The notes below the pieces were generated by a model. The model searched no databases. It had not been told where the DNA came from and worked only from the letters and a program-made list of their open reading frames with translations. From positions 248,001 to 312,000 of the forward strand of contig WHUX01000007.1 in assembly GCA_015179025.1 (NCBI GenBank): 64,000 nucleotides of DNA, in the 5' to 3' direction. Origin of the DNA: Terfezia claveryi. Lineage: Eukaryota; Ascomycota; Pezizomycetes; Pezizales; Pezizaceae. Numbering within the stretch: the first letter of the stretch is position 1; each line of letters opens with the position of its first letter. This document shows, piece after piece, positions 26,904 through 51,922 of the stretch. Made by a program: the position numbers and the translations under genes.

Positions 26904-26966
26904 CCTTATTGTAGTCTGGTTGGCACAATCAAAGGAGGGTGTTGTGCCAACCAGACTACCTTATTG
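26904..26966. mobile_element. 47-bp foldback insertion with 17-bp perfect TIRs and 8-bp TSD
   Basis: The inserted segment 26912-26958 starts TAGTCTGGTTGGCACAA and ends with its exact reverse complement, separated by a 13-base spacer. It is flanked by CCTTATTG at 26904-26911 and again at 26959-26966. This defines the outer boundary of the repeat family seen elsewhere in the window: the insertion begins at the T of TAGTC. Far too small to encode anything, so it must be moved by something else. Confidence 0.85.
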
Positions 26967-28019
26967 AGACATATACTACTGTATCCCTACCCCGAGCCGG
27001 GGGCCTACCTGACTTGGCGCCCAAAGCCCGCAGACAAATCTGAAGCACCGTACCCAAGGGGCGATTTACATCGTTTCTTGGTACTGACCCACGCTAGAGC
27101 ATCCTCAACAGTGATCATCACCCCATCAAGAGCCAGGCAGGCATCGGCACCTGCTCTGCCTTAATGATCATGACGACCGGAGCCTGGACAGGGATGTTAC
27201 AACTGCACCGCAAGAGGAAAGCAGGCATTCTTCCGCCGGCTCTCGATACAGCTGCACGCAAGAACGAGGTCCTCCAAATAATGTATCACCGCCTCCGAAT
27301 ACTTCGTAAGCAACATCATGATATATGTCTGAATGAAGCGGGCGTACGCGTGGGTATGCTGATCTCGCATAATCCTGCCGGGTTGTAGGCGTGGGTGTAG
27401 GATCTCAGTTTCCTTTGAAACGAAACTGAACAGTCATAATTGTAGTTGTGACGCTTTATGCATGGTGTAGAGATTGAATTGTTGTCTGACGCACCCTGCG
27501 CAAGCAGCATGCAGTCCGTCCATCAGTCGGTCGTTCGGTCGGTCATAATCCATGCCCATGGGATCGCAGCAGTCGCGATGACGATGCAGCCCAACAGGAC
27601 CAGGCGGCTAACAAATACCGGTACATGTAAAATTGTTCCCTAGAAGTTGCACGCATGGTGCGAAATGTCATCTCCTTTCGATAGAGGGATTTTTTTTTTG
27701 GAAACAAATATTGGGTGACTATGTACCAGACACATAACTTCATGATGCCCTAATTAAATTGGGTGGACACAAACTGAAGGTTTTTGTCACTGGTCACGGC
27801 GAAGAAAAAAAGCAAACAAACCAAAAATCAAGCATAGGTACCTATTCTCGACGTCTGAGCCCTTTTATTTCATTCGCTGAAATGGTCATGTGCCCAACCG
27901 CTGCATGCGCACCCTCCCCAGCCAGTAACTTAGAATTCAAAGCCCCTTCCTGCATTCTACCATTACTGTGAAAAATCTTCAGAGAAATACGTTAGTAAAA
28001 TCGGGCTTTCTCCTATATT

Positions 28020-30241
28020 GATAACATCAAATACTCCTTGAGTGTCGAGACCTTTCCATCAAAGAGCTTATTGTAAAAGTTTTTGTGGCTCCAAAGAGTG
28101 AGCACCCAGGTGCCCCAATGTAACAGGCCACACACAGTTGTTAACATAGAGAAAACGAAAGAGTAGGAATGCTAACCGCTTTCTGGCATCGCATGTCGCT
28201 GGGGATGTTCACACCGTCATATTGGTTGGCGTGAAGGGACAAGAATAACCTAAAAGATCGATCGCAGCGACTCGTTAACTTGCATCACTCCCGCTCCTAG
28301 TCTTGCTAAAGGATTGAAATGGCTGGTAATTCAAGGTGGAGGGGAAGCGAGACCATCTTCGAGGGTTATATGCACCGATTGGAATAAACCCAAGATCGAA
28401 TGGCCCTGGACTCAGCTGACGTTAGACATTATATTCATGGGGTGTTGGTTATGTTCAGGCCAGTCAAATGGAGTACATCTTAGCTCCCCTATCTGCTTGA
28501 ATGCAGGAAAAACGGGTAGATCTTTGTGGGCTTCCCCATAATCAAACTCGCCCTCGGGGATGTGGTCAGGAACAGTTCTGTATCCGGTTTCTCTGTTAAG
28601 AATGATGTCAGTTTTTGGTATAGTCAGTTCTGGCGCTTCTTATTCCAAAGGATAAATTCACACCGACCAATTTCCACTGAAATTATATTGATTGAGGGGT
28701 AAGGCTTGGAGGGGTAATATCTTACTGAAAAAGCCACAGAGTGAACTTAGCCAGCAAATTAGACATTCTTGTCACCGCTCTCAACACTCCAGCTTGCCCA
28801 GAGAGTCCAGAACTGATCATGGACGCCTCGGGCACTTCCATGTTGACAGGGCAGGTGGCCGATCCTTGCTACCCGACCAATTTCCACTGAAATTATATTG
28901 ATTGGGGGATAAGGCTTGGAGGGGTAACATCTTACGGAAAAGCCACAGAGTAAACTTACCCAGCAAATCAGACATTCTTGTCACCGCTCTCAACACTCCA
29001 GCTTGCCCAGAGAGTCCCGAACTGATCATGGACGCCACGGGCACTTCCATGTTGACAGGGCAAGCGGCCGATCCTTGCTACAATCTCACCGAGGGCCCCT
29101 TCGGGATACTAGTCCCTTGCCCGTTTCTTGCAACCGAGGTTACTTCGTGGTCCTTCCGGCTGAGCTTTATCTCCCTCTCTTCGCACCAATCAAGTCTAGT
29201 GAAATTCTCTATTCCACAAGCATGAAACCTAAATAACCATCACATATAGTTAGCGAGAGCGAACGCCGAAAGATACTATCTGAGACTGGCAATCGGGATG
29301 GCAAGCGCAATGCGGTACGGCACTTAAGTTTTAGCTTGACACGAATACGAGTGTTTGAGTTCAGAACGGAATTGCCCTTACTACTGTCTCATCTCACCAC
29401 ACCATAAGATGTACAATGCTGACGATCATATGTATGATACACATGCAAGGCAAATCAAGGAACGTTACTTACCATTGTGCATTACCCAAACCCACAAAAA
29501 ACCACGCACTCGGATGATACTTCTTTAAATCCATTACAGTGCCATGATCCAAATGATCGTAGAGATTGTGTGAAATGATGACAGCGTCAATTGCTGGGAT
29601 ATCGGATATCTTGCAAGGGATCTTCGTGAATCTCGCGGGCCGCATAAACTGAAGAGGACTACATCGGTTAGAGAACATAGGATCAAAGAGTGCACGGAAG
29701 CCTCCGGGAAATTCAACCTATCGATAATAATGCCGTGGCAATGTTAGCAGATGGACCCTGCTTCGATCGAATACGTAAAGTCACTGCAACATACGTAATA
29801 ACATGCATGTCCTAGCCATGTAGCCCTCAGAGATATTACTTGGGTGTCCCGTCCTAGGAAGCTTGGAGGTACAACAGGAACATCCCTTTCTGTTTTTTTC
29901 CTACAAAATTCATTTAGATTTCATATATGTAACCTCCAACGAATATGCCTATAACAACTTACTTCCATAACCCAAAGGATGTCTTCATCATTCTGGAAAC
30001 ATTTTGCCAACCCAAAACGAAATTTCGGAAGCTGAGAAGTCATATGATTAACATGCGGATCTCAGATTCGGAATTTGTTTCATCGATCGATCGGAGAAGC
30101 CCGCCAGGGCAATGGGTTATGGAAACCCCCAGACTTCAAGTGGTGTGATTTCGATCTTGCATCCTCGGGTGAAGCCAGGGCATTCGCAGGTGCACCGACA
30201 GTGGTATTATATGTGATAGCTGAAGCGGAAGCGAGTGACAT
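28020..30241 (-). pseudogene. Decayed NAPE-PLD-type metallo-beta-lactamase-fold phospholipase D
   Basis: Family hydrolysing N-acyl-phosphatidylethanolamines (yeast Fmp30-like). Pieces in correct order: start at 30241 with SKSHHLKSGGFHNPLP; DVPVVPPSFLG to TWLGHACYY (29900-29795); FRALFDPMFSNRCSP and IDAVIISHNLYDHLDHGT (29717-29473); GIENFTRLDW (from 29228); LPCQHGSARGVHDQF..TLWASW inside a duplicated segment (28663-29082); ETGYRTVPDHIPEGEFDYGE (about 28592-28500); GPFDLGFIPIGAYNPR (about 28413-28365); LHWGTWVLTLW (about 28120-28020). Lesions: stop after SPIDR, two stops after SFWVGKMFPE, a stop after SGDKNV in both copies of the duplicated exon, a disrupted frame between GPSVRL and LPCQH, and the metal motif HxHxDH reads HNLYDH. 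Splice sites remain partly intact, so the decay is moderate in age. Confidence 0.8.
28663..29082. repeat. 210-bp tandem duplication spanning one exon of the NAPE-PLD pseudogene
   Basis: Unit 1 is 28663-28872 and unit 2 is 28873-29082, both beginning CCGACCAATTTCCACTGAAA. They differ at about a dozen positions plus one A. Each holds the CQHGSARG exon and its flanking intron sequence on the minus strand. Unit 2 retains a GGTAAGT donor; unit 1 has GGCTAAGT at the same place. Confidence 0.93.
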
Positions 30242-30678
30242 TTTTTCTTTCTCATCGGGCCCAGTGATGTGAAAACTCTATCGGGTCCGTGACAGCGGTA
30301 ACGACGTGAATACTCTGCTGTTGAAGGATTGCTGTTGGCAGACGACGAGCTGTTCCGTTGCAACGTAGGCCACTTTGGGCAGGTGATACTCCCAGAATAT
30401 GATGGCCGAGGCGCATATATACCTTGACCTAGTAGGTTTATTATCGGATATTTTCTGTCAACTATTTTATCGTTGTGCACCTCAGCGTCTACTTCTTAGT
30501 TCATTAACAAATACACCAAACATCCCATTTCATATCCTTCCACTTGAGTTAGAGTCAGAAAAATCCGTCAAGCCGAGTACCTCAGTTCCAGATAGCAAGC
30601 GGCCTGGTGAATTCATTGTTCTGTTACCAGTGCTATTGCAGTCTTGGCAAGATGGCTGACATGCAAACCTACAAAGAC

Positions 30679-30715
30679 AGGGAGATTCTAGTCTGGTTGG
30701 CACTAGGGAGATTCT
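30679..30715. mobile_element. 15-bp head-only insertion with 11-bp duplication
   Basis: AGTCTGGTTGGCACT (30690-30704) sits between two exact copies of AGGGAGATTCT (30679-30689 and 30705-30715). Confidence 0.75.
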
Positions 30716-31172
30716 GTTTGCGACTTCTATGCTGAACCCTGAATCTCGGCCCGTGCCGGTGGCCGATCAGTGAAGAGTTGTGAGTCGGGTTTCGGACAGA
30801 GAAGCTTTCTCTTTAATTTGGCATCGTTCCACAGAGGCAGCCAATTTTCAATGATTTGAGTTAATGCCATTTTGTTCTTCCTCCAATTGTACCCGTCACC
30901 GGGACTGCCCCTTTGTAGGTTTCTTCTTCCAGGTCCATAAGGCTACCCAATCAAAGGTTCTGGAAGGTCACTTTTTCTAGACTAATTCCAATTCTTGACG
31001 AATATCTATGGCAGGCAACATGATGTCAGAGAAAGGTATCCCAATAGTGGCATATGGAAAGAGGTTCTTGATTATTGGTGATAATGCCAGTATTCATAAT
31101 GGCTACTGGCATCTGGGTAGCGTGCTCCTGAAGCTATATATTCAGGGAGAGGTTTCAGTAAAAAAAAACCTA

Positions 31173-31223
31173 GTGGACAGGTAGTCTGGTTGGCACAAGC
31201 CCCTCCACAGGAGGGCGGACAGG
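31173..31223. mobile_element. 33-bp head-plus-hairpin insertion with 9-bp duplication
   Basis: Insert 31182-31214 begins with the 15-base head and then holds the hairpin CCCTCC-ACA-GGAGGG, whose last G overlaps the right repeat. The flanks are GTGGACAGG and GCGGACAGG (one mismatch). Confidence 0.7.
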
Positions 31224-32364
31224 ATACTTGTTCTTCACAATTCTAGTCTAAAAGGTAAACCATTGGGGCTTGTGGTTGGGGTATAATGCATTAAACTCAC
31301 ATATGTCAGGCAGTTGAAGCCTCTTCTCGTCTTTGCCGAAACTTATTATACATCTCTGTCGGTTGTTTGCCGTGGAACTAGGCAATTTAAGATATTGAAC
31401 TGCGAATTTGTCTATGGGCTCCATTCAGGGCATTTGCCTGAATAGCAGACGAAATTCGGGCGAAGACCAAATAGGAGTCATTTAATATTTGAACGATTGT
31501 ACGTACATTGTTCCAAGAGTTCTATTTGATTTATTTCATTTGATTCATTGAAGGCGAGTCGCAGCTAAGGGCGTGGTATCTAAATATATCATGAAGGAAG
31601 GCGATGTGACCTCTATTCCTTTCTTTAACTGACAGGTTAATGCTAGAGACTCATGTAAGAAATACATTCTCGGGCATGGATTTGGCTGCAATATAAATCT
31701 CGGCAAACTTATCACGGCCATAAAAGAGGAGTCTACCTTGGTCATCGATGCCGCTTCGGATTTCCCCCAGACATGGAAATGACAAACCTCTGCAGGATCT
31801 TGGGGTAGTCATAGAATGTGGAGCAACGGACTCTTAAGCCCTGAACAAATTTTAAGCAGTCAATTTTCAGCCTGGGCCATCATCTTGACGGACACAGTAG
31901 ACTATTCACAAATAAATGGAAGGTTGAGGGCATAGATACCAATGTGTTAAAACGAGCTAGGGTTAGAGGTCCGGGCTGGGGGATCCCGTGGAAACGGTAG
32001 CGAGTATAGGACAGCTCGCTTAGACGCTAGAATTCAATCGGGTATTCACAAATGCCCTGCAGCATTGCATATGAAAATGTCCAGAGGTGGCCATTTTTCT
32101 AATGATGGAGGAGGAGTAAGAATCATTGATTTGGAAAAGTTGGCAAAACAACCTCAGGGCCGAAACTAATTTTATAATATATCATGCTAACATGTGAATA
32201 GAAGGCACTTTGTTCTTTCCTGGATGGGAACTACATATTTCATATACTGTTACTGATACACCTAATGCAAACTTTCTTGTGGGATAGATTGGTTTCATGG
32301 AACAGTAGACGGGGAAAGACCTCCAAAAGCGCTAGGCATTTCACGTCAATGGCCCTAGGTAGTC

Positions 32365-32376
32365 TAGTCTGGTTGG
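32365..32376. repeat. Core of the short insertion head
   Basis: TAGTCTGGTTGG without a clear flanking duplication. It is preceded by an overlapping TAGTC. Confidence 0.4.
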
Positions 32377-33796
32377 GTTTGAAAATGAAGAATCCACTCC
32401 TGCTATATGACGTCCGAGCTGGTCAGAGCTCCTACCATCTAATAGTCTGTATATATATCTGCAAAAACAGGGGCTGAGGCTGACGATAAAGGATCCCCTT
32501 CACAGGGCGGGTGCAAGATCCATACAAACGCCAGTCCCTGAGGCATGTGTGGAAACCACTATCAGTCAGTTGAATTGATATTGTGAGGTTCCAAAAAGCC
32601 AATTACTTAAACCAGAAGTCATAACTGCCTATCTGTGCCGTTAATCCATGCCGACACCCTCAGTTCATTACCCATGTCAGATAGAAATACGAACTGACCA
32701 TTTGAACCCCAAGCTGGAGACAAAATTTACATGCACGTGAGAGGATGGGGAAACATTTTCCATAAAGAAAAGATAACCCCCCCAAAAAAACGCTTGGGCT
32801 GTGGTTACCTACAGTATATCCATCTGGGCCCCAAATTTGCTTATTCAGCAGGTAGCTGGGATAAGTTGTAGATCAATCACATCACCCTCACCCTCGGTGC
32901 CCTCATCCAGGGTCAAGTTGTCTTTAAAACTCGTCTGCAGGGAATTTGGGATGACGAGATAGTCAGAAGAGATTTCTTGCGGCCCAATTGGGAAGAGATT
33001 CATGGTCGTGGAAAATAATGACTCGAGCAAATTACACCATGTCACCACGTTGTTAATGACTCGTAAGCTTTGACATTGTGAACCACCAAAGAGGGGTAAG
33101 TCGGCGGCCTCTTGTGTAAGGATTTGCCTATCAAGATATAGAAACATGACGTTCAAAAAAAGAAAAGTGAATTCATGAAAGTGACGGCTAAGCTCAGAAG
33201 CAAAAGCAGGCATCCCGTTATTGAAACCCTATGGCAGGTACTCCTCCAATAAAATTTCATATATGACCGACCTCCATCTCTCGCAGTCCCTGCATCAGCC
33301 CGGCCCGCTGCATTGCCCTCCAAATCTTGGCCCTCTCATGATCACCCTGTTGACCCCGCTAAAAGCAAGCAACTCAAACACAAAGAAAAAGGGAAACAAA
33401 ACGCCTATCCTCTAGCAGTGTTTCCTTTCCCAACCAAACGGCGCCCAGCTGGAACATTACTTGAGATAACATTACCCATGAGAAATTGCAAAAACACCGA
33501 ACCAAAATCCGGTCAAGAAAACAGGGCATTAGAGTTAAAGCAAATGGCGAAAATGGCTCTCCAATAAAGAACACTAGATCCCCCAATCTTCCAACAACCA
33601 AGTGATAGCGAACAGGATTAGAATGACAATAGGATAAGCACACGGAAACGAAGAATATAAAAGATGTAGAAGTCGTTGAATAAATGGATGAGAAGCGTAC
33701 CCTCTGCAGCTAGGTATTTGAATGAGTAGGAAATGATTCCTTACCCGTGTTGCATCAAAGCAGTCCCTTGAATTTCTCTGATTGAGTTCTGTCGTT

Positions 33797-35723: not shown

Positions 35724-37948
35724 GATGATTGATCCAGTAAGAATTCTAGAAGTCTTGTGAAGACGACGTCAACGGAATATGCTTATCGGCCTTAATTGAC
35801 GGTTTGGAGTAATTGGCAGTTCAGCTCAGAGATGTCCAATGCGAGGCAAGCCAAGGCGGGAGTGAGAATCTGGTATGGAAAGTCGTGACAAACCGAGCAA
35901 AATAGGTTTATCGCTCGTTCTTGAGGATATCAACAAGAAGCTGGGTAGCCGGCATAAACGAGTTAGCAGAGTTGGGATGATCAGGAAACGCCAATCAGTT
36001 GTCAGCACTGCACCTGCTTCAACCCGGTATTACGCTAGACGACACCAAGGTTGTTGCTCGTGCCAATAAATGGTGCAAATGGGGATGAGTGGTGGGGAAA
36101 GGAACGAGGGGAGGTGAAATTGGAACTTCCAAAGAGATCTTTTTTTTGTTTTTGCAAAAAGACCCAACAAGGGTGTTTTCCAACCAAAGATCCCTATAAG
36201 TGGAGAATTAGGCGGCTGAGGGCTGGTTACTTAAGCTGGGTTTTGTGCCTGCACGTGGCTCGTGCGACTTTTCGCTACATTTGCCCGCATGATAACAGAA
36301 TTAAACATTTGTTATCTGTTCTAACGTTTGTCCGAGTAGATGATGATAAAAGTATTATTTTGGGCCCTTGAGATGCCTGAAACGCAAATTAAACACTAGC
36401 CACATATAATATGAATAAAGCAAGCCGATAGACGCAAATTCAGGCCTCTGCATACCCACAGCATGCATCTAGACCCCAGTGACATGTTCTACCTAGGTGG
36501 TTTGGCGTCCCGAACTACATCTCCACAGACTCCACAACCTGTACTCCCATTCATGAGACGCATCGTCTACTTAGGCGTTAGTTTTCCCATCTTATTTTCA
36601 TGCTTCCACCGAGCCCTGTCTCTTACTCAATACTACTCTTATATGTCAGAGTGATGTATTCGATTACCAGCATGGGTTGTGATACATTCGCAAGCAAAGC
36701 CTGTTCTACTACTTCTCGTACTGTGCAAACACACAATTACTCTACAGTTAGTCTTTAACTTCTTTGCCAAATCTCTTGCTTTTGTTACAACGCCTCAACT
36801 CCAACAAGGGGACCTGGCAGCCTCACGCTCCAGTGGGGCTTCTTGCAGTAGTAGGATATTTATATCATGAAACGAGCCCGCCCCAACTTACAGTTTCATT
36901 GGGCTGGTAATGCGGCGGGTCCTTTCTACATACTGCATGGCATGAGGATGGATATCAGTAAGTTATATCCCTTTATGAACGGAAATAAAATCGATACTAC
37001 CCACATACTAGTGTTCCCATAAACCCACATTCTCCAGGTATTCTGGGGTCTCCAGAAGAGCTTAGGTAGTTCTTGGGTTTGTGCGTAAACCTCAATGGTT
37101 TTGTCATTTTCAGGGTAAAAAGCCAGATTAATGAATTCAGAGTAAACCGCCCCAACCCCGACTAAATCTACAATTGTTTTTAAGAAAACAAAAATCCTAT
37201 GCTAGTTGTAGTAGTTGCACATTAGTTGAACTCCCAGTGCACCATCACCCAGTGATTGTACAGAACTGTCGTTGGTCTGGGATAGTTGCCGTTGAAGAGG
37301 GCCTGGACAAACCATGGCCCCTATATTTAGTTCGGGCTTCGTAAGATAATATGACCATGGAAGCAGGATGCTGAATCTCAGGAATTGGTTGGGGGGAATA
37401 TGCTTGGGAGCGGGAAAATGTGTGTAGCTGGAATAGTGTGTACTTACAATTTCCCTCCACAGATCTCACGTGCCAACCAGACTAGATCTCACGGCTGCTT
37501 AACCTTGGGGGAAAGTATGATGGCCTAATGAACGATTACCCTGAATGTTGAGTCTCCCACGAACCTAAACTATATAGAACATGAAAACACGTTTCCGATC
37601 AACCCATTATTGAGCCGAGCCAGGTTACTAGATGTGTTAAAATACTCTCACCGGTCGAACCAAAGGGGTAACTTGTTAATAGAAGGGTCGGAAATACGGA
37701 AAAATGGGGCTAGTTGTCACTTAAACTATATAAGTTTCAACCTATCAGCTCTAAATGGTGCTCCGACGGTTCAACCTGGTTTGATCTGGTTACGAGTGTA
37801 GTTTAATGTACGTAGTCCTATCATACCATGATAGCCGAGACCCAGTGTTGCATACCGACCTATGTAGGGCGTTATTTACATGCCCTAATGTTTGTTTCAA
37901 TGTATCTGATCTAGTTGGCACGACCTCTCGTAGTCGTAGAGGTTTGTA
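35724..37948. other. 2.2-kb spacer upstream of CNOT11 and downstream of BMT6
   Basis: Contains the CNOT11 promoter. No gene found; open frames are short and featureless. Two short insertions lie at 37.47 and 37.91 kb. Confidence 0.5.
37461..37493. mobile_element. 13-bp head-only insertion (reverse) with perfect 10-bp duplication
   Basis: TGCCAACCAGACT (37471-37483), the reverse complement of the head, lies between two exact copies of AGATCTCACG (37461-37470, 37484-37493). The cleanest case for a true short insertion. Confidence 0.85.
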
Positions 37949-37950
37949 TC
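37901..37950. mobile_element. Diverged head-plus-hairpin insertion near the BMT6 3' end
   Basis: Variant head CTAGTTGGCACGACC followed by the hairpin CCTCT-(9 nt)-AGAGG. TGTATC occurs on both sides (37901-37906, 37945-37950). It ends one base before the BMT6 stop codon, so the right repeat overlaps the last BMT6 codons. Confidence 0.5.
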
Positions 37951-39100
37951 ATACACTCTGATAGACCCTAACCAAATAACGCATGTTTTCCAACTCTATT
38001 GGATACCTCAGTCCTCCCTTCGGTAGTCTATACCAATTGGAATCTTCTGAAACAATCTTTTTCCAGACGCCATTACCATCCTCATCACCCTGACGTCCAA
38101 CCAATATCAAGTCCAGTAACCATGGCATTGGGTATTCCCTTTCCCCCACTTTCACCATCGAATAACTCCCAGCACTTTCTACTATCATCAACAAAGCACC
38201 ACTAGACACCTTAGCGCCAAGAGAGGAAAGGAAGGCCGTGGCGTTGGAGGTGGATTGTGTGAATAGCTCGTTTGTGGTGAATAGTAGTGTTATTAATGCT
38301 GTAGATTTTGTAATCAAAGATGCAGTGGATGGTGAGAGAACATCCCCTTGGTGGAAAGTTGCTGAAAATAGATTTGGGGAGACAAAAGGTGAGTGAGACT
38401 CAGAATATTGTGTGAGGGACGACACCAAAGAAGAGATGGTATTCGTCCAAGAGGCTATATCGATTGTAGTTACGTGAAGCCGTGAGAGTGAGGACCTAAT
38501 TGATTCGTTTCTCTCCTTTTGCTCCTGGTTACCTTCGGGGTTACTAGGAGCTTCATCCGGGTCCTTTGTTTCGCTGGGTTGCTCGCTCCTATGCTCCAGA
38601 GCCTTTGCTTCCTCCTCTTGTATTACTCCACTCCCTTCAGCCAATTCTTTAACTACAGCGGCAATTCCCACAACTTCTGCTCCTGCGCCGCCTCCAATAC
38701 AAACAACCTGTGAATTTTTGTTGTACCCCACTTCCCCCACATCAAATACCCTTCGAATGTCGTTGCAAGTGTCTAGAAAAATCCTTTTGTAAGCCAGAGC
38801 CCTACTTGGGCTCCACCTCACAACATACGCCTGCAGATACTCTTCCGAACCAAACGCTCTTAAATAATCTCTCTTGTATAAATGCCCTTTGACTTCTTGT
38901 AAAGTCTGGGGAAGCGTATCTGTAAATGCATAGGAAAATGTGCGCCTAAAGATCGTGAGAATTTCTTGCTCTGATTGCGCTGCTGAACTGTCTGGTTCCG
39001 GCTTCCTGTTGGGTTTTACGGGGGGTGCGGCCTTCCGTTTGCTCTGAACTGAAGACGGTGGTTTGGAATTGAAATTTTTGTGGGCTCCTTGCGAAGGCAT
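37949..39100 (-). CDS. BMT6: Bmt6-like 25S rRNA (uracil-N3)-methyltransferase
   Basis: Single exon, 383 residues from MPSQGAHKNFNS. Rossmann-type SAM-dependent methyltransferase of the DUF3115 family; in yeast Bmt6 methylates one uridine of 25S rRNA in the nucleolus. Family marks: EILTIFRRTFSYAFTDTLPQ, then EVKGHLYKRDYLRAFGSEEY, the nearly invariant RWSPSRALAYKRIF, and the SAM motif I VVCIGGGAGAEVVG. A Glu-rich loop (about residues 170-205) separates motif I from LHVTTIDIASWTNTI. The basic Lys/Pro N-terminus suits nucleolar targeting. Later strands TALITLLFTTNELF and GALLMIVESAGSYS complete the fold. No lesion seen. Confidence 0.88.
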   Translation of the reverse strand: MPSQGAHKNFNSKPPSSVQSKRKAAPPVKPNRKPEPDSSAAQSEQEILTIFRRTFSYAFTDTLPQTLQEVKGHLYKRDYLRAFGSEEYLQAYVVRWSPSRALAYKRIFLDTCNDIRRVFDVGEVGYNKNSQVVCIGGGAGAEVVGIAAVVKELAEGSGVIQEEEAKALEHRSEQPSETKDPDEAPSNPEGNQEQKERNESIRSSLSRLHVTTIDIASWTNTISSLVSSLTQYSESHSPFVSPNLFSATFHQGDVLSPSTASLITKSTALITLLFTTNELFTQSTSNATAFLSSLGAKVSSGALLMIVESAGSYSMVKVGEREYPMPWLLDLILVGRQGDEDGNGVWKKIVSEDSNWYRLPKGGLRYPIELENMRYLVRVYQSV

Positions 39101-39230
39101 GTCGTTGGCACAATAGGAAGATTTTACATTAATTAGCCTCTACCGGTATCTACTTTTGTATGCAGTTTGTCTAGCTAGACTATAAAAAGTCTAGGCTTGA
39201 TGCTAGTATCTCTGGTATTCGCTAAACCTT

Positions 39231-39259
39231 GCTAAACCTTAGTCTGGTTAGCTAAACCT
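39231..39259. mobile_element. 11-bp truncated head between 9-bp direct repeats
   Basis: TAGTCTGGTTA (39240-39250) lies between GCTAAACCT at 39231-39239 and 39251-39259. A third GCTAAACCT lies at 39221-39229, so local tandem duplication also occurred. Confidence 0.6.
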
Positions 39260-39266
39260 GTACCCC

Positions 39267-39284
39267 GTACTAGTCTGGTTGTAC
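39267..39284. mobile_element. 10-bp truncated head between GTAC repeats
   Basis: TAGTCTGGTT (39271-39280) is flanked by GTAC on both sides. The flank is short, so this alone is weak evidence. Confidence 0.45.
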
Positions 39285-40001
39285 AGCACCATTTGGGATT
39301 CGAACTCACATGTAGACCAGCACCATATCTTGACTGCTGATTATGTATTCAGTTATTCAGCAGCATCACAATATGCTTTACATACATTGTTATATGTTAG
39401 ACTTATACCCATATTCTATGCTTCATCATTTTTAAAGCATTCAACAAATGGTTTTAACATATTCGCCAATGAATGCTTGCCTATAAATCTGACTACTCTA
39501 AAACGGGAACCAGTTTCAAAGTCATCTCAATGAACGCCCTTGACACGGGTGGTCATTGAAGTAGACTTAATAGAACCTGAATGAGAGCAAAGCTGTTGGT
39601 TCCTGGATGACCATTGACAGATCGAATCCTATGATCTACCTCACATAGGTATGGTCGCCCACTCTTCTCTGGCATTACAAACGATACTCACCTAAGTAGA
39701 CGGTATGGTATATAGCCTCTGGCGAGGGGTAGTTGCAACCGGACTAGATATGGTATTCTGGTTAACAATACGGATTTTCTTGGGAGGGTTGGGGGAGGGG
39801 ATTCAATGGTATTACAGGTATTATAGGTAAGTCTCCCGCCCATTGAGAGTGAGAGATGTGGGTATCAGTTGATATCAGGAAGCATAACGGGTAGAATCAA
39901 TATTACTCCAACCAGTTAATCTCCTCGTGCCGAGAATCCCAATTAGGTAGTCTCGAGATCTGCCCTATTTTCCCCTTCCCACCGAGACTGCTGCTATTCC
40001 C

Positions 40002-40016
40002 TAGTCTGGTTGGCAC
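40002..40016 (+). repeat. 15-bp insertion head upstream of secreted-protein gene
   Basis: TAGTCTGGTTGGCAC, followed by AACCTCCTCCTC with no clear hairpin or target duplication. It lies about 130 bases before the ATG at 40147, so it may be in the promoter or 5' UTR. Confidence 0.6.
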
Positions 40017-40146
40017 AACCTCCTCCTCATATCACTACACCACTACACTACTACACCACCAGTTTGTCTACTCTGCACATTCCTTCTGAGAACCCAGTCA
40101 CTCTCTTCGTACTCTCCATCCTAGCTCTAAGTACATACTTCCCACA

Positions 40147-41105: not shown

Positions 41106-41926
41106 TCTTGCTACGAGTTTTTTAGGGATTATCGTGGGCTTTGTGGTGATTGTCGGCTGGGAAATTCCTAATTTTCTTTGAATCCCCCTTCTTTCAAGAT
41201 TGGTGTTATATTCCCTATCTTTGCTATACTTCTTGCTATCACCAATTACCTTTCTGCTATTTATATAGCTGTCATTTGGTTGAAGTTGGAGGGAACTGTA
41301 CCCCACCCTCAATTCCAGACACATAGTTAGCATTTATAAGGGGGTCAAGCGGTATAATCCCTCCAAAAAAAAGGTTTTCTCTTGAAACATACTCCCTACT
41401 ATCTCAGACTTTTGCAGTGGAAGGTCGAGTCAAACAAAAGTAGTCTGGTTGGCACGACCCTCCTCTAGGGAAGAAAGAAAAGTACTATTAAGAAACTTCT
41501 TGGTGGACATTGGGTGGTAGCGTAGGCTTTAGGTACGCCTGTAACGAAACCTGAGAACAGCCTCGAAATGCGGCGAAATAACCTACGCCAACAAGACTAC
41601 AAACATTTAGCAAGTAGCCTCATGATTTAACACCCATAATTTGCACACTGTATGCATAGCAAGATTATATAGATATTGGAGTACACCACATCATAAATCA
41701 ATCTCCACTACTGTTGATATTGTATACTGTCTTTTCTTTAGTACTTGACTCAATACCCTCGTGGATTATATCAAAGAATACACAACTTATAGTCTGGCTC
41801 AGATGTGATTTGCAGTGGGTACAGTTGAGGGTAACATCACCAACCTCCAACGAGGCCAATGCCAAGACAAAACGGCTTCACCGCGCGGGGGTCACTTGCT
41901 TTTTGCTGGCGACGTACAGCAACACA
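41106..41926. other. Spacer before YSA1
   Basis: Holds one short insertion at 41.44 kb. The reading frame upstream of YSA1 is open to 41714 but does not resemble the family. Confidence 0.5.
41432..41484 (+). mobile_element. Head-plus-hairpin insertion with 11-bp duplication
   Basis: TAGTCTGGTTGGCACGACC is followed by the hairpin CCCT-CCTCT-AGGG. The flanks AAACAAAAGTA (41432-41442) and AAAGAAAAGTA (41474-41484) match at 10 of 11. The A-rich context weakens the flank evidence. Confidence 0.6.
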
Positions 41927-42855: not shown

Positions 42856-45800
42856 GCTGGAAAGGGATATGGGGATATATGGATTTTAATGTCTCTGGGA
42901 TACTAGACTAGGTTTATGCGGATTTTGTTGGGTGCTTATCTGGTGCTGTAATGAAACACATTGCGGTGCGCGAGGTGATGTAGCCATTCATAGCCCCTAT
43001 GGAGAGTACTAACGGAGACATCATGCATGAAACTACTGTGCATGACACAACGGCCACAGGAGTAGTATAAGCTTTCCATTTTCGAAGGTAAGTACACACA
43101 GTCGTAGAGGGAGGGAAACTTGTTGGTATGGGAATTGATTGCGTGAGTTTAACGCTGCTGAAATAGGATCTAGGCAGGGCTTACAGCTTAACAGAACCAT
43201 ATCCAATAAGATGCGAGTACCCAGTGGTAATATTCCTTTGCATGTATGAGCATTGAAGTATTCCCGGACTTGTACAGCCTCTACCAGTAGATACGTTGTC
43301 ATACACACTTGGCATCCAACATGTGCATACAGCCTAATGCTTGCTCCCCGCTTAACTGCATAAGTTGTGTGATGCCATGGGGCTTGTGCCAACCAGACTT
43401 CGTTAACGTTTGTTTTTTGGATAGCAACTACGTAACAAGGCATTCATTCACAAACCAGAGCCCCTGTAGCGAGTATATAGCCTCGTACTAACCAGTCTGT
43501 TGTCTCCGGGTAGTCTGGCTTCATTTTCGTCCGGTACAATTGGTTTATATCAAGGTTCATCTGCCAGGGTTATATTTGTGCGCGTCTCGACTTGCCATAG
43601 TCTCGTACCAGTTATACGTTTTTTTCAGGGCTGTCAACTAGCAGCCAAATAGATCTAACACTCATGACAGGCTTACGGAAACATATTAAGACAGTCTCGA
43701 ACTACAGAAATCCTTGAGTACTTGGATATTCACTTAAGCACCTTCACAGCACAGTATACATTGCGTTAGGAGCTCAGTCTCGTTGGAGGCTGCACTCTGA
43801 GAGTAACGATTCTTTGTGAACGAGTTCACTTACCCTTTGCAGAACCTAGTCCTATCAAAGACGTTTTGTGTTCCTATTCAGGAAGTCGCTCTCTCCCTCA
43901 ACCCTGCTCACCCGTTCTCCATCTCTGCAGAAAACGATTAATCAGACTACTGTCCCTGCACTATCGTGAAAGTCCAGCGACTGATAAGGGCAATGCCAAG
44001 ACCGCCTGCCAAGTCGGGCCAACCAAATCCGTATAAATAGTCTACCGTCCCCTTTTCCCTTCTTCTCCACACAACATATCAAACAGTAAGTCAACCCCAA
44101 TGCTACACTTCTTTCCCTACCAACTTTTTGGCAACGACTAACATAGTCTATAGAGCCTAGTGACGATACAAAGAGAGTTCACGACTTCGACACCTAGATA
44201 TGGTTCTTCTGTTATTCTAGTCCATCTTGTATGACCTAGCTAGCAGTTGAACCAATCAAATGTCCTAACATGGGTGGCCATTAAGAACGGAAATCGGAAG
44301 GCTTGTGGTTTGTTTCTTGCTTTTATCTGTTCCTCAGGGGGTTTCCAAGAATGAAGCTCTGACATCTCAAATTGTGTTCGATTTATTTTTTCACAATCCC
44401 ATTTGCTGTTGATGATTCCCTCGCATTCAACTCTGAGGCTGCGACCATGGATAAGTGAAGCATAATCCGACTGGGCTACCAGATATTATGTCAAGGCAGA
44501 GGACTGAATGTGATGTGGCAGTTGATTGCGGCTCTGCTCGATCTTTCATTACTTGGGTTCGACTCCTAAGTATGCACTCGTTTGAATCACCATTTAGGGG
44601 CTAGTAGGCATGATTCGTAGTCTCTCATTCTGTCGGTTGCATTCTGAACTTGTCTGAGCATCTGGTCCTTCTACTAGGAGTACTGAAACAGTGCTGGTTG
44701 GATGGCGATGATGAGAAATGCTAATTTGTAGTTTTCAATCGGAGGCGGTGGTAGCTGTTGAAAATTTCCAACCTGGTTTGAGACAAATGTTGCTTCATTC
44801 GTTGGTTGCTCTAGTAAGTTACAAACCATTTTTGCCTTATGATGATCATACAAAAGCCAAATCTAAGTTGCTTTGCTCTGTACTGGCTACGTCTGACAGA
44901 GAAAGCACGCCTGACCTATTATCCGCCGCGTCAGAATCCTTGTAGGATACCAGGCAACGCGAGTAATAGGATGGGAATGATTAATAAAGGAGAGTTGACT
45001 GAAGGCCCTTCTTTCAAGGATGCTTTGTAGTTTCTAAGGTTACTTTTGCTGTAATTCCCTGTCTTGTTTATTCTTGCTTCATATATGGGGATTGTATTTG
45101 TCTATTTGCAATGAGTGTTGAGCGGGATTCGGCACGAGCCTATTCAGCTGGCTGCCACTTGTGAATCTCTGGTTGTAATCACTGGGGTTTACGGAAGATG
45201 TAGGTTTTAAAAACATAAGCCAATCTCCTGTCAACTAATCTCCTGTCAACTTAAGAACCCTTTTCTAACCATTCTGCAAAACCACTCCTACACAGCGACC
45301 ACTGCTGTCCTCTCCGAACAGGCGCGCTCATTCCACCGTTTTCACGTCCACCCTACAACAAAGGCAAAATGAATGAGCAGCGTAGCCCCTAGCCTCCGCT
45401 ACTTCGCCTTGTTGTGTGAATGACCTACCGACTGGTGCCGGGGGTGAGCAGGATGATGGCAAGAGCAGTGAAGAAGGCGCGGAAATTGGTACTAAAAGTA
45501 GCGCGCGGAAAGTGTCGAAGGGGATGAGATCAAATGTACTAGTTTGGCAAGACGGTATGGTATGGAGCATCGATATTCACACCATCATAAACACCTACGT
45601 ACAGAAAGAGTGCAGGTTTGCTAGAAGCAAGAGGATTATGACAGCTCTAGAGCTACGAGTCATCTATCATCCATGTTTAGTTACCCCTAAACCTCTCCAA
45701 TTTCTATTCCTAGTCCTTCCTAGGTAAGCATGAGAGAAGGAATAAGTGTCAAGTACTAACCAACGAATAGCAACGCCAAAGAGAGCAATACTATCACCAT

Positions 45801-46743
45801 ATCCCATTCTAGAAGATAGCAGTACGAATTGCACCCGAAAACAGGGTTCTCAATGCAGAGAAGGTAAAAGAAAGAGGGAAGCTGAGATATGCAATTCCCT
45901 CCGGCTATTGCCACATAAAATACCAGAAGTTAAATCATACATCAACCCCTAGAAATTCCATCCATACCACTGCCCTCCTAAACCAAACCCGGACCCATTA
46001 TCAGAAAGCGGGAGGCCTAAGAAATTTTCTTTGAGTTAATCGTGTTATTAGACTGTTCAGACCATATAGCAGTTTGATCATCATGATGAGCTATTTCAAA
46101 TCTATTGTCTACTTAAAACATCTGCAGTCAGTCAGACAGATGTGGGATCTAGCCATGACTTTTTATAATGAATGGTGACACGTAGTTCTAATCGTTATTA
46201 TGGGCAATTGATATTTGCTTCCTGGCAAACCTTCTACATAGTTCCGATACTTGTGGATGAGCACCATAAGCTTTATATACCCTGATATACTAAATTCGGA
46301 CGTACTACCAACGGTTATGTAAGCCCTTACCGACAGAGGTCAGGTCACGGAATGCATCATTGAAGTAAACGTCGTGGGGCTTATTCGCCCCATCATTTCT
46401 CCGTATTTAGCTTAGATTAGTCAGTGTGATCAGAGCCTTGGCGCTCGTGAAGGCCTTATGCCTGGTATGTTTTGAAGAATGGAACATCATCACACCACAC
46501 GTCGTAAGACCGCAATATTCAAAACGGAAAAACACAACAATTATCAATACGTTCTTTAGGTTAAAACACTCCGGACCAAGAAAAGCAAAGCCACAATCTA
46601 CCCTCCAAACCCTACCAGGTCTAGCCCTACCAATAAAATTATAAACAATAACCATGCATGAAACAAAAACACCAAAACACAAAGAAACTCGTTTTTCCAA
46701 CCTCCATCCCGATCAAACTCCCTCCAAAGCAGTTGTACAAAAT
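42856..46743. other. 3.9-kb gene-less stretch
   Basis: No gene is supported on either strand. Notable: a reverse insertion head at 43386-43399; truncated TAGTCTGG motifs at 43511; a promoter-like TATAAATAG at about 44033 followed by pyrimidine-rich DNA and CAAACAGTAAGT but no coding sequence; and an isolated GGTTCGACTCC at 44556-44566 without a foldable tRNA around it. Confidence 0.5.
43386..43399 (-). repeat. Reverse copy of the short insertion head
   Basis: GTGCCAACCAGACT. No convincing flanking duplication. Confidence 0.5.
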
Positions 46744-47343
46744 TTATACATTGCTATGAGGATACCCTGTTTTCGCCCTCCCCCCACGAATCGTATTGAT
46801 CCACGACCCCGAATGTGTGTACTTCCTATCTCGATTGAACATAATAAACCCAATAACTGTGGTAATTATCCACATTAACCACGCCGCCAAGCTGAACCAG
46901 ACGGAGACCTTTAACTCCTGGCAATTATGACTGCTCCCACAAGTTCGTGGTATATAACTAAAAACCAGTCAGTCTCATCCCATCAACCAAGTTAATCGTT
47001 CAAATGACGGGAGGGAGCAAACTTACTTCCTCCCCCAAATCGCAAATACAATCAACCAAAACCCACTCAACGCCCCATCTACAAAGAAAAATCTCCAATG
47101 GGTAATCTGCGGCACCATCCATATTATCGTCACAATAAGTGAGATACTGGAGATTACTACGGAGAAGATCCAGTCGCTGTGGATTGTGTTGTTGGAGTTG
47201 CGTGCGGACTGGATGTCCCCGCCCCAGATTACGATAGTGGCGAGGGCGCAAATGAGCTGCAGAAGGCGAAGGGTATAGTGGACGATGATGAGAGGGATAC
47301 CGCCGGCGCGGTGGGAGCGGTTGTCCGTAGATTTTTCAATCAT
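46744..47343 (-). CDS. MARVEL-domain four-helix membrane protein
   Basis: About 176 residues from exons 47343-47027 and 46957-46744, in phase (GRK donor, AA plus T makes Asn). Four membrane segments are visible: IPLIIVHYTLRLLQLICALATIVIWG, IFSVVISSISLIVTIIWMV, FFFVDGALSGFWLIVFAIWG in exon 1 and KVSVWFSLAAWLMWIITTVIGFIMF (shown from its start) in exon 2. A loop carries paired Cys (RTCGSSHNC), typical of fungal MARVEL proteins. The C-terminal cytosolic tail is basic and Gly-rich. MARVEL proteins sit in sterol-rich membrane domains; the exact role is unknown. A model taking exon 1 alone would lose the fourth helix. Confidence 0.85.
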
Positions 47344-48411
47344 CTTTGTAGTGAGACGAAAGGAGGTCTTGGGAGAAGATGCGTCTAAGATACTGGTAGG
47401 TAGATGCAGAGCGAAACTGATGCTAATATCGACAAGTAATGTGTAACGGGGGAGGGAGGGAGGTACTCAGTACACTCTCACTCTCTTTCAATTATTAAAA
47501 GATATATCGAAGTTTTTATCAGACCGTATGCTGAATGAGGCTCGCTCGTTTATAACTGCTTAGGCTCTGCCTTTTAAGAAGAGAAAAGTGACTGTGCCCT
47601 GCTTTATAGAGTCTCCACTGGCATGCGGAGGGGCCACAGGGCAATATATACCCCAAATCCAGTTTTTTTGTGTATCAATATTCCATAGGTAGCCACGATG
47701 GTGCGCTGGCCAATAATTCCATTTGCATCTTTCAAACGATCAAACAGGAGTAGACGCCCTCGGTTTCGGTGGCTCCTATTTTTTTCTTTTTCTTGCTTCG
47801 CTTCCATGACGCGAATGGGGCGACGATCTCGTGTGGTGCCAGTCAGTCTCAGACATATGCACTCCGCCCTACGCATACACCCGTGCTGAGGAATGGGCAT
47901 CTGCCCAAACAGCAAGTCCCGCCCTGCCAAGAAATCCACTACCGGTAGCTAAAGTGTGGCGTCTATCTTTGCATGCGCAATTGTGGCTACTGTCTACTTG
48001 AGACGTTTGATAGGCAAAAGGGGAAACATACCACCGCTGATCACGTCAAAAATAAATATGTATACAGAAACGTAGGTACTATACAAATACACCAAAACGC
48101 CATGAAAGCCAATTAAAAAAAAAATAAAAATCTAATAAAAGGCACAAAAAAGGCAGGAGGCAGCTCGAGCTCTAGAGACAAAAATAATCCGCCCCAATCC
48201 CCATCTCACTGGACATCGGGAAGATCAAACATTTCCCCGCAACTACCACGCCCAGGGTCAACAGGTATACAGCTGTACCTGAAATTGCCGATTTCTTGGG
48301 TATCCATTCAGATGAATTCAACAGCATCATGCCACAGCCAGGACAACTCAAAGCCCTACCCGGAGTTTTAAACTTCCGAATCAAAACCTTTTGTGGATGT
48401 CGACCGCCACC
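47344..48411. other. Spacer between MARVEL gene and MCC alpha
   Basis: Promoter of the MARVEL gene and 3' region of MCC alpha. The minus-strand frame at 48384-48172 (LSCPGCGMMLL..) is probably 3' UTR; I do not call it a gene. Confidence 0.5.
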
Positions 48412-50639
48412 CTACGACGGCAGTGCCTTATTCTCTCCCTCTACCTCGCCCTCCGCAGCAAACTCCACCAACGTAGTCCCCATCTTCACCATCTCCCCCA
48501 CTCCATGCACCACTTTCCCCACCACCCCTTCCCTCGGACTCCTGATCACCGTTTCCATCTTCATACTCTCAATAACTACAAGTGCGTCCCCCTTGCCCAC
48601 TTTCTCCCCTTCCTCAACCATGACCCGCAACACCTTGCACGGCATCGGTGCCAGCACGCTTCCCTCCGTGAGTTTCTTAATACCAAGAGCCTTGTCGAGC
48701 CATGCCGGCCGGGGGATAGTCAAGGTGAATTTTTTGCCATGTTGAAAGACAGTAAGAGTATCTTCGTCTCGGACGACAGTTGTATCGAGGCGCGTGTGTG
48801 GGTAGAAAGATGTGATTTTAGTTTGTGAGGATAACGATGTCGTGATGTTATTGAACGTAGTCTTTCCACCGACAACAACATCATATGACTGTGGGGAAGT
48901 TTGTGTTACCACCACCTCCACATCCCTAGTAGTGATATCCTCCCCACAACCGTTCTTCTCCGTAAAAAGTACTGTGCGAGCCTGCAAACCCCCCGTATAC
49001 CCCACTCCGCCCCCAGCAACGCTAAATGGATCATTATACGCCTGTGGTATATTCTGCTTAACTACGACACTGAGCGCAGCCTGCGCAAAAACCTCACTTG
49101 GGGTCTCCACTTTTTGGAATAGGTCCTCTCGGTACTTCTGAATAAACCCCGTCTCCACATCTCCCTTTACAAACGCGGGATGCACCGCTAGCTTCTTCAA
49201 AAACTCAATATTAGTAGACATGCCGACGACTTCGTATTCCTCGAGTGCTTTCCGAAGCTTAAGTAACGCAGCTTCGCGCGTTGGGCCTTTGACGATAAGT
49301 TTTGCAATCATAGGGTCGTAGTGTGAGCTAATGACGTCACCCTGACCGAAGCCCGCATCGATTCGGACGGTGTCCGTTGGGGTAGGGGTTTTTAGGTGGA
49401 TCAAGGGACCAGAGTCAGGGATGAAGTTCATATCTGGATTCTCAGCATAAATTCTTGCTTCGAAACCCCATCCGTTCATCTTCTCCTCTACCTGCTCCTG
49501 GGTCCAAGGGAGTGGCTCACCCCGGGCGACTAGGAGCTGCCATTCAACGAGGTCGGTTTCGGTGACCATTTCTGTGACGGGGTGCTCGACTTGTAATCGA
49601 GTGTTCATCTCCATGAAAAAGAATTCCCCCGTGTCGTTATCGAAGATAAATTCTACTGTCCCGGCACCGCGGTAGCCAACTGCTAGGGCAGCGGCACGGG
49701 CTTTTTCCAGGATATCCCGCCTGATTTTAGGGTCGAGATTAGGTGCGGGGGATTCCTCGAGGATCTTTTGGTGCCGGCGTTGGACAGAGCAATCTCTCTC
49801 ACCCAAGGCAACGCAGTTCCCATGCGCGTCAGCAAAGACTTGGACTTCAATGTGCCGAGGGGTGGTGATGTATCGTTCGATGAGGACGTTGCTGTCACCA
49901 AAGGAAGAGACGGCTTCCGATTTTGCCGAGGCAAGTTGTTCGAGGAAGTTCAAAGGAGAGTCGGAAATACGCATGCCTTTCCCACCACCGCCTTTGACGG
50001 CTTTAATGAGGACTGGGAAGCCGACTTTAGTGGCCTCGGAGAGGAGGTATTGCGGGTCTTGGTTGGGGCCATGGTACCCGGGGATACAAGGGACACCGGC
50101 GGAGATCATGATGTTTTTTGATTCGCTGCGTATAATCGTAAGGCTACAACCAACCAATTCGGGGAACTTGGGGGAGCATACCTCTTATTCCCCATTTTCT
50201 CAATGGCACTAGGTGGTGGCCCAATGAACATCAACCCCTCTTGCTCACACCTCTCTGCAAATTTTGCATTCTCACTCAAGAACCCGTATCCAGGGTGTAC
50301 ACTGTCACAGCTACTGTCCTTTGCAGCTTTTATTATCTTTTCCACATCGAGATATGCACTTGGAGGGCCGATATTCACGGAGTGCGGAGTACAGAGGGCA
50401 TGAGGAGCGAGTCGATCCGGCTCGGTGTAGACGGTGGTTGTACGGATGCCGTGGGCGGACGCAGTGCGTGAGACCCTGAGGGCAATTTCGCCGCGATTGG
50501 CGATGAGGATGTTTGTTAGGGGTTTAAAATTTGGTTGGGGGGTAGATGTAGATGTGGAAGAGTAACGGGAGCGGAGAAAAAGAGTGAATATGCTGGGAGG
50601 AGGACGGCGGAGTGTGCGGGCGTAGTATTGTGGAATCAT
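48412..50639 (-). CDS. mccA: 3-methylcrotonoyl-CoA carboxylase, biotin-carrying alpha subunit
   Basis: Mitochondrial leucine catabolism: carboxylates biotin and hands it to the beta subunit, which converts 3-methylcrotonyl-CoA to 3-methylglutaconyl-CoA. Exons 50639-50182 and 50125-48412 join in phase (AATAAG-AG plus C: MGNKSESKNIM), 723 residues. The start MIPQYYARTLRRPPPS gives an Arg/Ser-rich presequence; there is no ATG further upstream in frame. Biotin carboxylase domain: ILIANRGEIALRV, SVHPGYGFLSEN, the ATP-grasp loop KAVKGGGGKGMRI, MEMNTRLQVEHPVTE. The C-terminal biotinyl domain has VIESMKMETVIRSP with the biotin Lys. Complete family length, no lesion. The beta subunit gene is 5 kb away on the other strand. 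Confidence 0.96.
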
Positions 50640-50888
50640 CTTTGGGATTTGCGTATAACTCAAGCTTGCATTCAAACAAGAAGGGTATCAAATTGAACAA
50701 GCAAGGACAATCAATAGTCAGTAGTCATGAAGAAGAAAACGAAGGAAGATTGAAGAAGTCGAAGGTGGACTCGACCAGAATTGGGGATATACTATTCCAT
50801 ATGGTTGACCCAAGCGGCTATCGAAGGCATTTCGGTGTGGGAGCTCCATTCTCGCCTATCGCTTGGCGTTGCATCATGCCATATCCCT

Positions 50889-51077
50889 CTGTCCGGGATG
50901 CATAAATGAGGGCGTCCATAACCAGTTCAGGTGTGCTGCATAAAGGGACTAATTTGCTTATGCCAGCCAGCACAATTTCTTTCAACCCCACCTTATAATG
51001 TCCAGACAGCCCAGGCTGGAAATAGTCCCTTTATGTAGCACACCTGAACCGCATCCTCATTTATGCATCCCGGACAG
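50889..51077. mobile_element. 189-bp foldback (MITE-like) element
   Basis: The left arm (50889-50954) and right arm (about 51015-51077) are inverted copies: both outer ends read CTGTCCGGGATGCATAAATG inward and both inner parts carry GTTCAGGTGTGCT.CATAAAG. The left arm has an insertion of about eight bases near 50920. The central 60 bases are unique. No convincing target duplication is seen. Non-coding, so non-autonomous. Confidence 0.8.
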
Positions 51078-51875
51078 TTCTTGAATGTAACTGTATACAA
51101 CGATACCAACCAGATATGGCGTACTCATTGCATTCAGGTGAATTCTTTACGGTATCTATTATATTGGAAGGGAAAATTAATATAGAATGATAGGCCTAAA
51201 CTACGTCCAGGAATAAGGGAGTCTGACATGGTAGGGGGTACCAAGAGGTTGGCCGTGAGCTGAGGGTGGTTGAGGCTGCTGAGACCTCAGCAAAGATGAC
51301 GAAGAGTACCAAAAAGTCTCGAGGACGTTAGTCTCGGCACCCGAGGACGTTGCTTCTCGAGGACGTTGTTGCACGAGAATAGCTCGGTTGGGGCGGAAAA
51401 GGTTTGTGCATGCGAAGTTACTTTGACCCATACAGCATATCCATGAAGTTGGCCTATGCTTTCTGCCTACTGTATGATAGTTATACACAAGGGAACGCAT
51501 AGGGGCTTTGTTCATAATTCGAACAGTTATGTATGGGGGAGGGTTGTCGGGGGCTAGGGGGTTTACAGTACTAGTACTCCATAGCAGAGGGAGTTGACTT
51601 TTGTTTCTGACATTAGCTTTATCCCAGATAGTCCCTTGAAGAGGCCGTATTATATAGTCGTCAATAAAACATGCCATTCTTGTATAAGGGCACAAATACT
51701 TGAGACGCCTAGCATTGGTTGAAGTTCAATTCACCTCAGCTTTACCCTCATATGAATTACATAAGCACTTGCCAAGACAGGTTGAATTAGTCATCCCACA
51801 GAGACAATGACGCACCCAAAAGCGTTTGAAATAGGCCCCATTTTATCAAACCCCAAAACTCGATCATAAACAACC

Positions 51876-51922
51876 AGAAACACTAGTCTGGTTGGCACCA
51901 CCTCTCGTAGAGAAGAAAACAC
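51876..51922 (+). mobile_element. Head-plus-hairpin insertion upstream of an acidic-protein gene
   Basis: The 15-base head at 51884-51898 is followed by the hairpin CTCT-CGT-AGAG. The flanks AGAAACAC and AGAAAACAC differ by one A. It is about 90 bases before the ATG at 52003, so probably in the 5' UTR or core promoter. Confidence 0.6.

Follow-up and report, generated by a model that had tools for sequence, protein, structure and literature searches.

Tiny insertions between 9-base target duplications in the Terfezia claveryi genome suggest frequent failure of transposition

The genome of the fungus Terfezia claveryi probably holds thousands of tiny insertions that resemble clipped ends of a transposon. 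Many measure just 10 to 36 bases, and each is flanked on both sides by the same 9-base target sequence. We analyzed a 64,000-base stretch of the assembly (72.56 Mb in 794 contigs), hereafter the window (C667:248001-312000), together with related sequences elsewhere in the genome, and studied a family of inserts that open with a common 15-base head, TAGTCTGGTTGGCAC. Such short inserts suggest that the jump of a transposon often fails and leaves a scar. Specifically, we read them as abortive, mostly one-ended integrations of a DNA transposon with terminal inverted repeats (TIRs) that cuts its target with a 9-base stagger, and assign this reading a probability of roughly one half.

A 15-base head repeated through the genome

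Exact copies of the head number 2,885 across the 72.6 Mb assembly, divided almost evenly between the strands (1,432 and 1,453), and the reversed pattern, used as a control, occurs 0 times. The window contains eight exact copies (26912+, 26944-, 30689+, 31182+, 37470-, 40002+, 41441+, and 51884+) and 17 matches with up to three mismatches, against 1.59 expected and a maximum of six in 100 shuffles. These counts bear out the description, in the original prediction on this DNA, of a head family present in both orientations. In a 264-kb sample formed by C1:1-200000 and the window, the core TAGTCTGGTT has 42 occurrences against 1 for its reversed control, and the full 15-mer has 18 against 0. Scaling from this sample, we infer some 6,000-7,000 heads per genome.

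Inserts are flanked by a 9-base target duplication

The duplication was identified by seeking the 9 bases that precede TAGTCTGGTT in the next 75 bases, counting a match of at least 8 of 9 as a pass and re-pairing flanks among sites as the control. Three samples were scored, with two-ended elements entering the counts once per strand: C1:1-200000 plus the window (23/42 pass versus 0.43 expected), 20 C2 loci among the listed head places (10/20 versus 0.16), and 15 three-kb loci on C1 (13/33 versus 0.70). The other 15 of 30 three-kb loci were left out, as they lie inside C1:1-200000 (L001-L010) or overlap others (L017, L018, L021, L027, and L029). With the shorter terminus TAGTCTGG alone, 24 of 53 sites have a duplication, whereas shuffled 8-mers show one at 7 of 434 sites and random positions at 558 of 20,000. 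A scan blind to the head, which looked in the 264 kb for exact repeats of 9-12 bases at lags of 12-69, kept 83 cases, 13 of which enclose inserts opening with at least 10 head bases. The flanking repeats lie far above controls, a comparison for which the original prediction had asked.

Exact repeat runs of at least 7 bases peak sharply at 9 (8 sites of length 7, 5 of length 8, 21 of length 9, 6 of length 10, and 1 of length 12). This distribution fits a fixed duplication of 9 bases with chance extension and decay. The duplication length is not freely variable, contrary to the earlier account, and the LINE-type endonuclease proposed there is not supported, the peak being of the kind expected for a transposase. 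A strong target preference was considered and rejected, as the duplicated bases are only weakly biased in composition (57 sites after merging).

Empty sites provide a second line of evidence for insertion. We removed each insert with one repeat copy, compared the joined flanks with the sample, and set self matches aside by eye. For 3 of 37 duplication-positive sites, a paralog runs uninterrupted through the junction; the remaining 34 have no paralog within the sample. The 15-base insert at C1:152120 is absent from a paralog at C1:129399-129537 (81% identity), and the 34-base insert at C1:65888 from one at C1:65333-65426 (90%). A second 34-base insert, at C1:152598, is missing from a best paralog at C1:128880-129017 (80%) and from three weaker ones. 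Together with the duplications, these empty sites uphold the claim that the copies are insertions of one family.

One fixed end and two length classes

Inserts at the 46 duplication-positive sites start at TAGTCTGG, and their far ends are ragged. Twenty-four are 9-17 bases long, none is 18-24, and 19 are 25-36, which confirms the extraordinarily small size claimed earlier. The longer inserts comprise one of 72 bases and two entries of 46 bases, which are the window's two-ended element seen from each strand; the 25-36 class includes a nested compound as well as two-ended elements of 30 and 34 bases, each entered from both strands.

One-ended inserts of the longer class usually consist of the head, a few bases, and a short hairpin of the form CCTCY-loop-RGAGG, and one of their forms is a 33-base head-plus-hairpin module. 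Such head-plus-hairpin copies occur 88 times genome-wide, and by manual count the stem is complementary in 83 (54 CCTCC/GGAGG and 29 CCTCT/AGAGG) and unmatched in 5, with copies inside one subfamily not independent of each other. We fetched 20 of the 88, and 14 pass the 8-of-9 test, 11 of these with an insert length of 32-34 bases and a far end at the hairpin. Six fail (L073, L074, L083, L088, L089, and L090), and L073 and L088-L090 run on into GTCTGG. The same stem is found with loop ACA or its reverse complement TGT, as though the hairpin had flipped. A second subfamily, TAGTCTGGTTGCACTACCCCTCGCA, is represented by a 34-base two-ended insert and a 25-base one-ended insert.

Two-ended forms are a minority. 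Exact heads pair with 0-30 bases between them in 46 cases genome-wide and with 31-60 bases in 18; among 20 fetched from the 46 close pairs, five have an exact 9-base repeat outside both heads. The remaining fetched subset comprised 20 of the listed C2 heads. Solo inserts are also nested in another insert (L053 and L066), and at C1:174445-174483 a 15-base insert sits, by eye, inside an older one of 11-12 bases. At about C1:16774-16840, visual inspection found two opposed one-ended inserts whose duplications abut, the target AGACCAAGC-CCTTCAA(AG) being split and doubled; these might represent one two-ended event.

Copies of the head in the window

The six copies named in the original prediction all carry flanking repeats, exact over 9 bases at 26.91, 30.69, 37.47, and 39.24 kb and matching at 8 of 9 at 31.18 and 41.44 kb. 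The first is a two-ended palindromic micro-element of 46-47 bases with both heads (26903..26966, + strand; element 26912-26958), unlike most other window copies. Its duplication reads as 9/9 around a 46-base insert or 8/8 around a 47-base insert; the left copy is ACCTTATTG, and the first A of the right copy is common to the end of the element. At 30680..30714 (+), a one-ended 17-base insert made of the head and TA (30689-30705) lies between two copies of GGGAGATTC (9/9). The 33-base module with hairpin CCTCC-ACA-GGAGG is found at 31173..31223 (+; insert 31182-31214), flanked by GTGGACAGG and GCGGACAGG (8/9). One-ended inserts of 14 head bases (37462..37493, - strand; insert 37471-37484) and of 11 bases, TAGTCTGGTTA (39231..39259, +; insert 39240-39250), have perfect 9-base copies of CGTGAGATC and GCTAAACCT, respectively, on both sides. 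The sixth is a one-ended 33-base insert with the head and an imperfect hairpin (41432..41482, +; insert 41441-41473), between AAACAAAAG and AAAGAAAAG (8/9).

Two further window copies resemble these. A diverged 36-base insert at 39.73 kb with the head TAGTCCGGTTGCAAC (39702..39755, -; insert 39711-39746) is bounded by TACCATATC and TACCATACC (8/9). A probable 30-base one-ended insert with head and hairpin (51875..51922, +; insert 51884-51913) has a weak, degraded duplication, CAGAAACAC and AGAAAACAC, that matches at 6 of 9 with a 1-base indel placed by eye. No duplication was recognised within 75 bases of the exact head at 40002..40016 (+; best 5/9) or of the heads with one mismatch at 43386..43400 (-; best 5/9) and 13770..13784 (-; best 6/9), the latter outside the interval covered by the original prediction. 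A search for repeats of at least 7/9 at 40002, 43386, 13770, 32365, and 39271 found none.

A T-arm-like stretch, GAGTTCGAATCCC, adjoins the head at 39271 (minus strand, window 39286-39310), where no tRNA or Rfam family was reported. Elsewhere, the window contains a 209-base unit in two tandem copies with 94% matches (28663-29081), and 7 of its 10 long open reading frames have Pfam domains, including BAR, CNOT11, and DUF7582. One of these frames has a Terfezia claveryi protein as its best match, at 89% identity.

Longer elements that begin with the head

The end common to L088-L090 extends the module to TAGTCTGGTTGGCAC-AACGACCTCTGAAAGAGG-GTCTGG-N8-TTTTATTTTTTG. Searching the DNA with this end gave a list of 25 places, and the subterminal pattern (up to three mismatches) occurs at 24, with 0 in the reversed control. 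Two of the listed places, C235:51349-51407+ and C235:59391-59448-, align at 87-88% over the head, the hairpin, and the T-rich part. They form an inverted pair 8,100 bases apart whose subterminal parts are identical, including the variable N8. A second inverted pair, C2:291883+ and C2:294148-, spans about 2.3 kb and its N8 differs at one base. Because head-led sequence begins both ends of the C235 pair, the head most likely forms the outer terminus of a DNA transposon with long terminal repeats, as judged mainly from C235.

We scored transposase domains genome-wide and located the matches relative to the two pairs. None of 21 matches to PF10551, the transposase of Mutator-like elements (MULEs), falls in C235:51349-59448 or C2:291883-294148, and the pairs likewise contain none of nine matches to PF18758 (Kyakuja-Dileera-Zisupton, KDZ). 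Neither pair includes a hAT dimerisation domain (PF05699) among the 150 of 182 candidates scored, or a Plavaka match (PF18759) among 123 of 598. Self-comparison of the 264 kb and the 15 loci revealed no long repeat starting at the head, though C1:1-200000 is rich in other repeats. Beyond 75 bases, the sample yielded one exact 9-base match (L016), with no reverse-complement head before it and thus no long duplicated element.

Two candidate parents were tried and rejected. At least five heads among 200 listed have a hAT domain no more than 5 kb away (C21, C23, C67, C124, and C179), compared with an estimated four or so by chance. The facing heads at C179:327330-334140 (327330+ and 334116-), spaced 6.8 kb from each other, enclose a hAT domain, perhaps by chance, perhaps as another parent. 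For Plavaka, the distance between a head and the match is 1,524 bases on C46, C277, C512, and C723 (1,329 on C300), and the head faces away from the gene. The 33-base module stands beside Plavaka in the same geometry at C46:14088, C277:23735, C512:42382, C723:220200, and C300:34700. It seems to be an old insertion carried along by Plavaka, and with this shared geometry the copies cannot all be counted as independent events.

Origin of the inserts

The fixed length of the duplication and the exactness of the outer end argue for the action of a transposase, which would cut the target with a 9-base stagger and have one transposon end (TAGTCTGG...) joined to it. Because the duplication stays intact while the inner end is ragged, at 9-17 bases, or lies at the hairpin near 33, a single end appears to integrate, the rest of the element being lost and the stub joined to the filled-in side. 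The element could break and be trimmed as far as the end covered by protein, or the gap-filling strand could copy only a short stretch of it; joining the stub to the filled-in other side would then leave the 9 target bases on both sides. Stubs of 10-17 bases would correspond to the bound terminal repeat, and those of ~33 bases would halt where the terminal hairpin (CCTCY-loop-RGAGG) is just complete. At that point, the copying strand may peel off on folding upon itself, or the trimmed end may be protected. Capture of a stub on both sides would generate a two-ended palindromic micro-element.

Several observations weigh against abortive integration. Forty-nine of the 95 sampled sites fail the duplication test, some with weaker or shifted repeats and others without any. 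The 9-base duplication was read at the small inserts, and for the long parents, the domain candidates scored include no transposase within the C235 and C2 pairs. The head listing that covers the relevant part of C2 has no exact head at the ends of that pair. L076 has an 8/9 match at an insert length of 21, within the 18-24 gap, probably through overlap with its own hairpin. Bases possibly retained from the other end (TA at the end of the 30689 insert in the window, GACTA at L028:1515) are what a collapse of two-ended elements predicts, and the sharp end of the 33-base class is equally compatible with a defined mobile unit.

The latter alternative, in which the micro-inserts are themselves mobile, the 33-base module and perhaps the 10-17 base heads being moved in trans, for instance as short hairpin-ended donors, is rather unlikely. 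It accords with the 11 of 20 fetched head-plus-hairpin copies that stop at the hairpin after 32-34 bases, with a stem that pairs in 83 of 88 copies and has two versions, and with several subfamilies built on the same plan. To our knowledge, known transposases synapse two ends, which is hardly possible with 10-33 bases of DNA, and the short class is mostly ragged (9-17 bases), leaving no single defined unit. Collapse, in which two-ended elements later lost one end and their interior, aided by hairpin formation in the palindrome, we regard as more doubtful still. Two-ended palindromes with 9-base duplications do exist (5/20), near-palindromic centres are often asymmetric, and the few inserts with possible other-end bases fit. 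Against this, deletions would have to halt repeatedly and exactly at the duplication, the 2,885 exact heads face only 46 + 18 exact pairs within 60 bases, and no long element with a reverse-complement head ahead of a duplication beyond 75 bases turned up in the sample.

Retroposition of fragments from a tRNA- or SINE-like small RNA by LINE-type machinery, as the original prediction suggested, is highly improbable. One fixed and one variable end would suit truncated retrocopies, and the head resembles a tRNA A box in the consensus quoted in that prediction. The duplication peak at 9, the head at both ends of the inverted 8.1-kb pair, and the two-ended palindromes all speak against an RNA source, and within the window no Rfam family reached its gathering score and ARAGORN detected no tRNA. 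At permissive settings, Rfam gave two matches in window 39100-39500, both far below their gathering scores, and ARAGORN with introns allowed found nothing there or in L012. Most simply, the A-box likeness is a coincidence.

Relation to known mobile DNA

Miniature inverted-repeat transposable elements (MITEs) are usually on the order of 100 to several hundred bases long. The inserts described here are similarly non-coding, small, and numerous, with a target duplication of fixed length (mode 9, empty sites for 3/37) and ends in common with longer elements, namely the 8.1-kb C235 pair, in which the domain candidates scored include no transposase. The two-ended forms of 30-60 bases fit this class; most copies differ in being single-ended and 9-36 bases long, and inverted repeats at both ends are confined to a minority of the duplication-positive inserts. 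MULEs make a 9-base target duplication, the term "9 bp TSD" being used in papers on them, close to that measured here on small inserts, and differ in that their PF10551 domain is missing from the parent pairs.

An abortive or single-ended product is expected to have an exact terminus, a target duplication, and a transposase capable of making it; the first two are observed here, and the domain candidates scored include no transposase in the C235 and C2 pairs. The term solo TIR is reportedly used for Galileo (PMC3573991), and single-ended transposition products are reported for piggyBac (PMC3952818). Both share with the T. claveryi inserts one transposon end without its partner; as far as those accounts go, they concern plasmid products or long repeats rather than naturally occurring 10-36 base stubs whose duplication is intact. 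According to PMC12730594, the target duplication is usually 8 bases for hAT and 2-3 bases for Plavaka, in contrast to the mode of 9 observed here. Yeast mitochondrial GC clusters and double-hairpin elements are likewise tiny, hairpin-bearing mobile inserts, and PMC4478555 describes a 42-nucleotide cluster with flanking repeats AG or ACT. On that description, they differ in being mitochondrial, whereas the present inserts lie on nuclear-size contigs and have 9-base duplications and one fixed end.

In the literature searched, neither the head nor its reverse complement was found as a 15-mer, and the 14-mer appeared in one unrelated mouse paper. Among the matches listed for solo or single terminal repeats, one-ended, abortive, or aberrant transposition, small fungal MITEs, and 9-base MULE duplications, no title or abstract opening describes such inserts. 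Known systems include solo terminal repeats, MITEs, and single-ended products; that literature yielded no stubs as short, precise, and numerous as these.

Implications

On balance, we favor the view that T. claveryi has a nuclear genome with thousands of one-ended insertions of 10-36 bases and precise 9-base duplications, either as a record of failed transposition or through a micro-transposition pathway in which nothing more than a transposase-bound end or the 33-base hairpin module is inserted. If this is true, they would be the smallest family of nuclear mobile DNA and would show that a transposon can leave aborted integrations as its main lasting output. Counts of DNA transposons are usually based on intact or two-ended copies; in this genome, exact heads number 2,885 and exact close pairs 64, and about half of the sampled heads have a duplication. 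If the stubs are failed integrations, they are too short for repeat annotation and hence have been overlooked, small indels in other genomes may also stem from transposase, and what failed integration leaves behind can be counted in natural genomes. Together, the pair of stub lengths and the halt at the hairpin would then show directly where the process stops.

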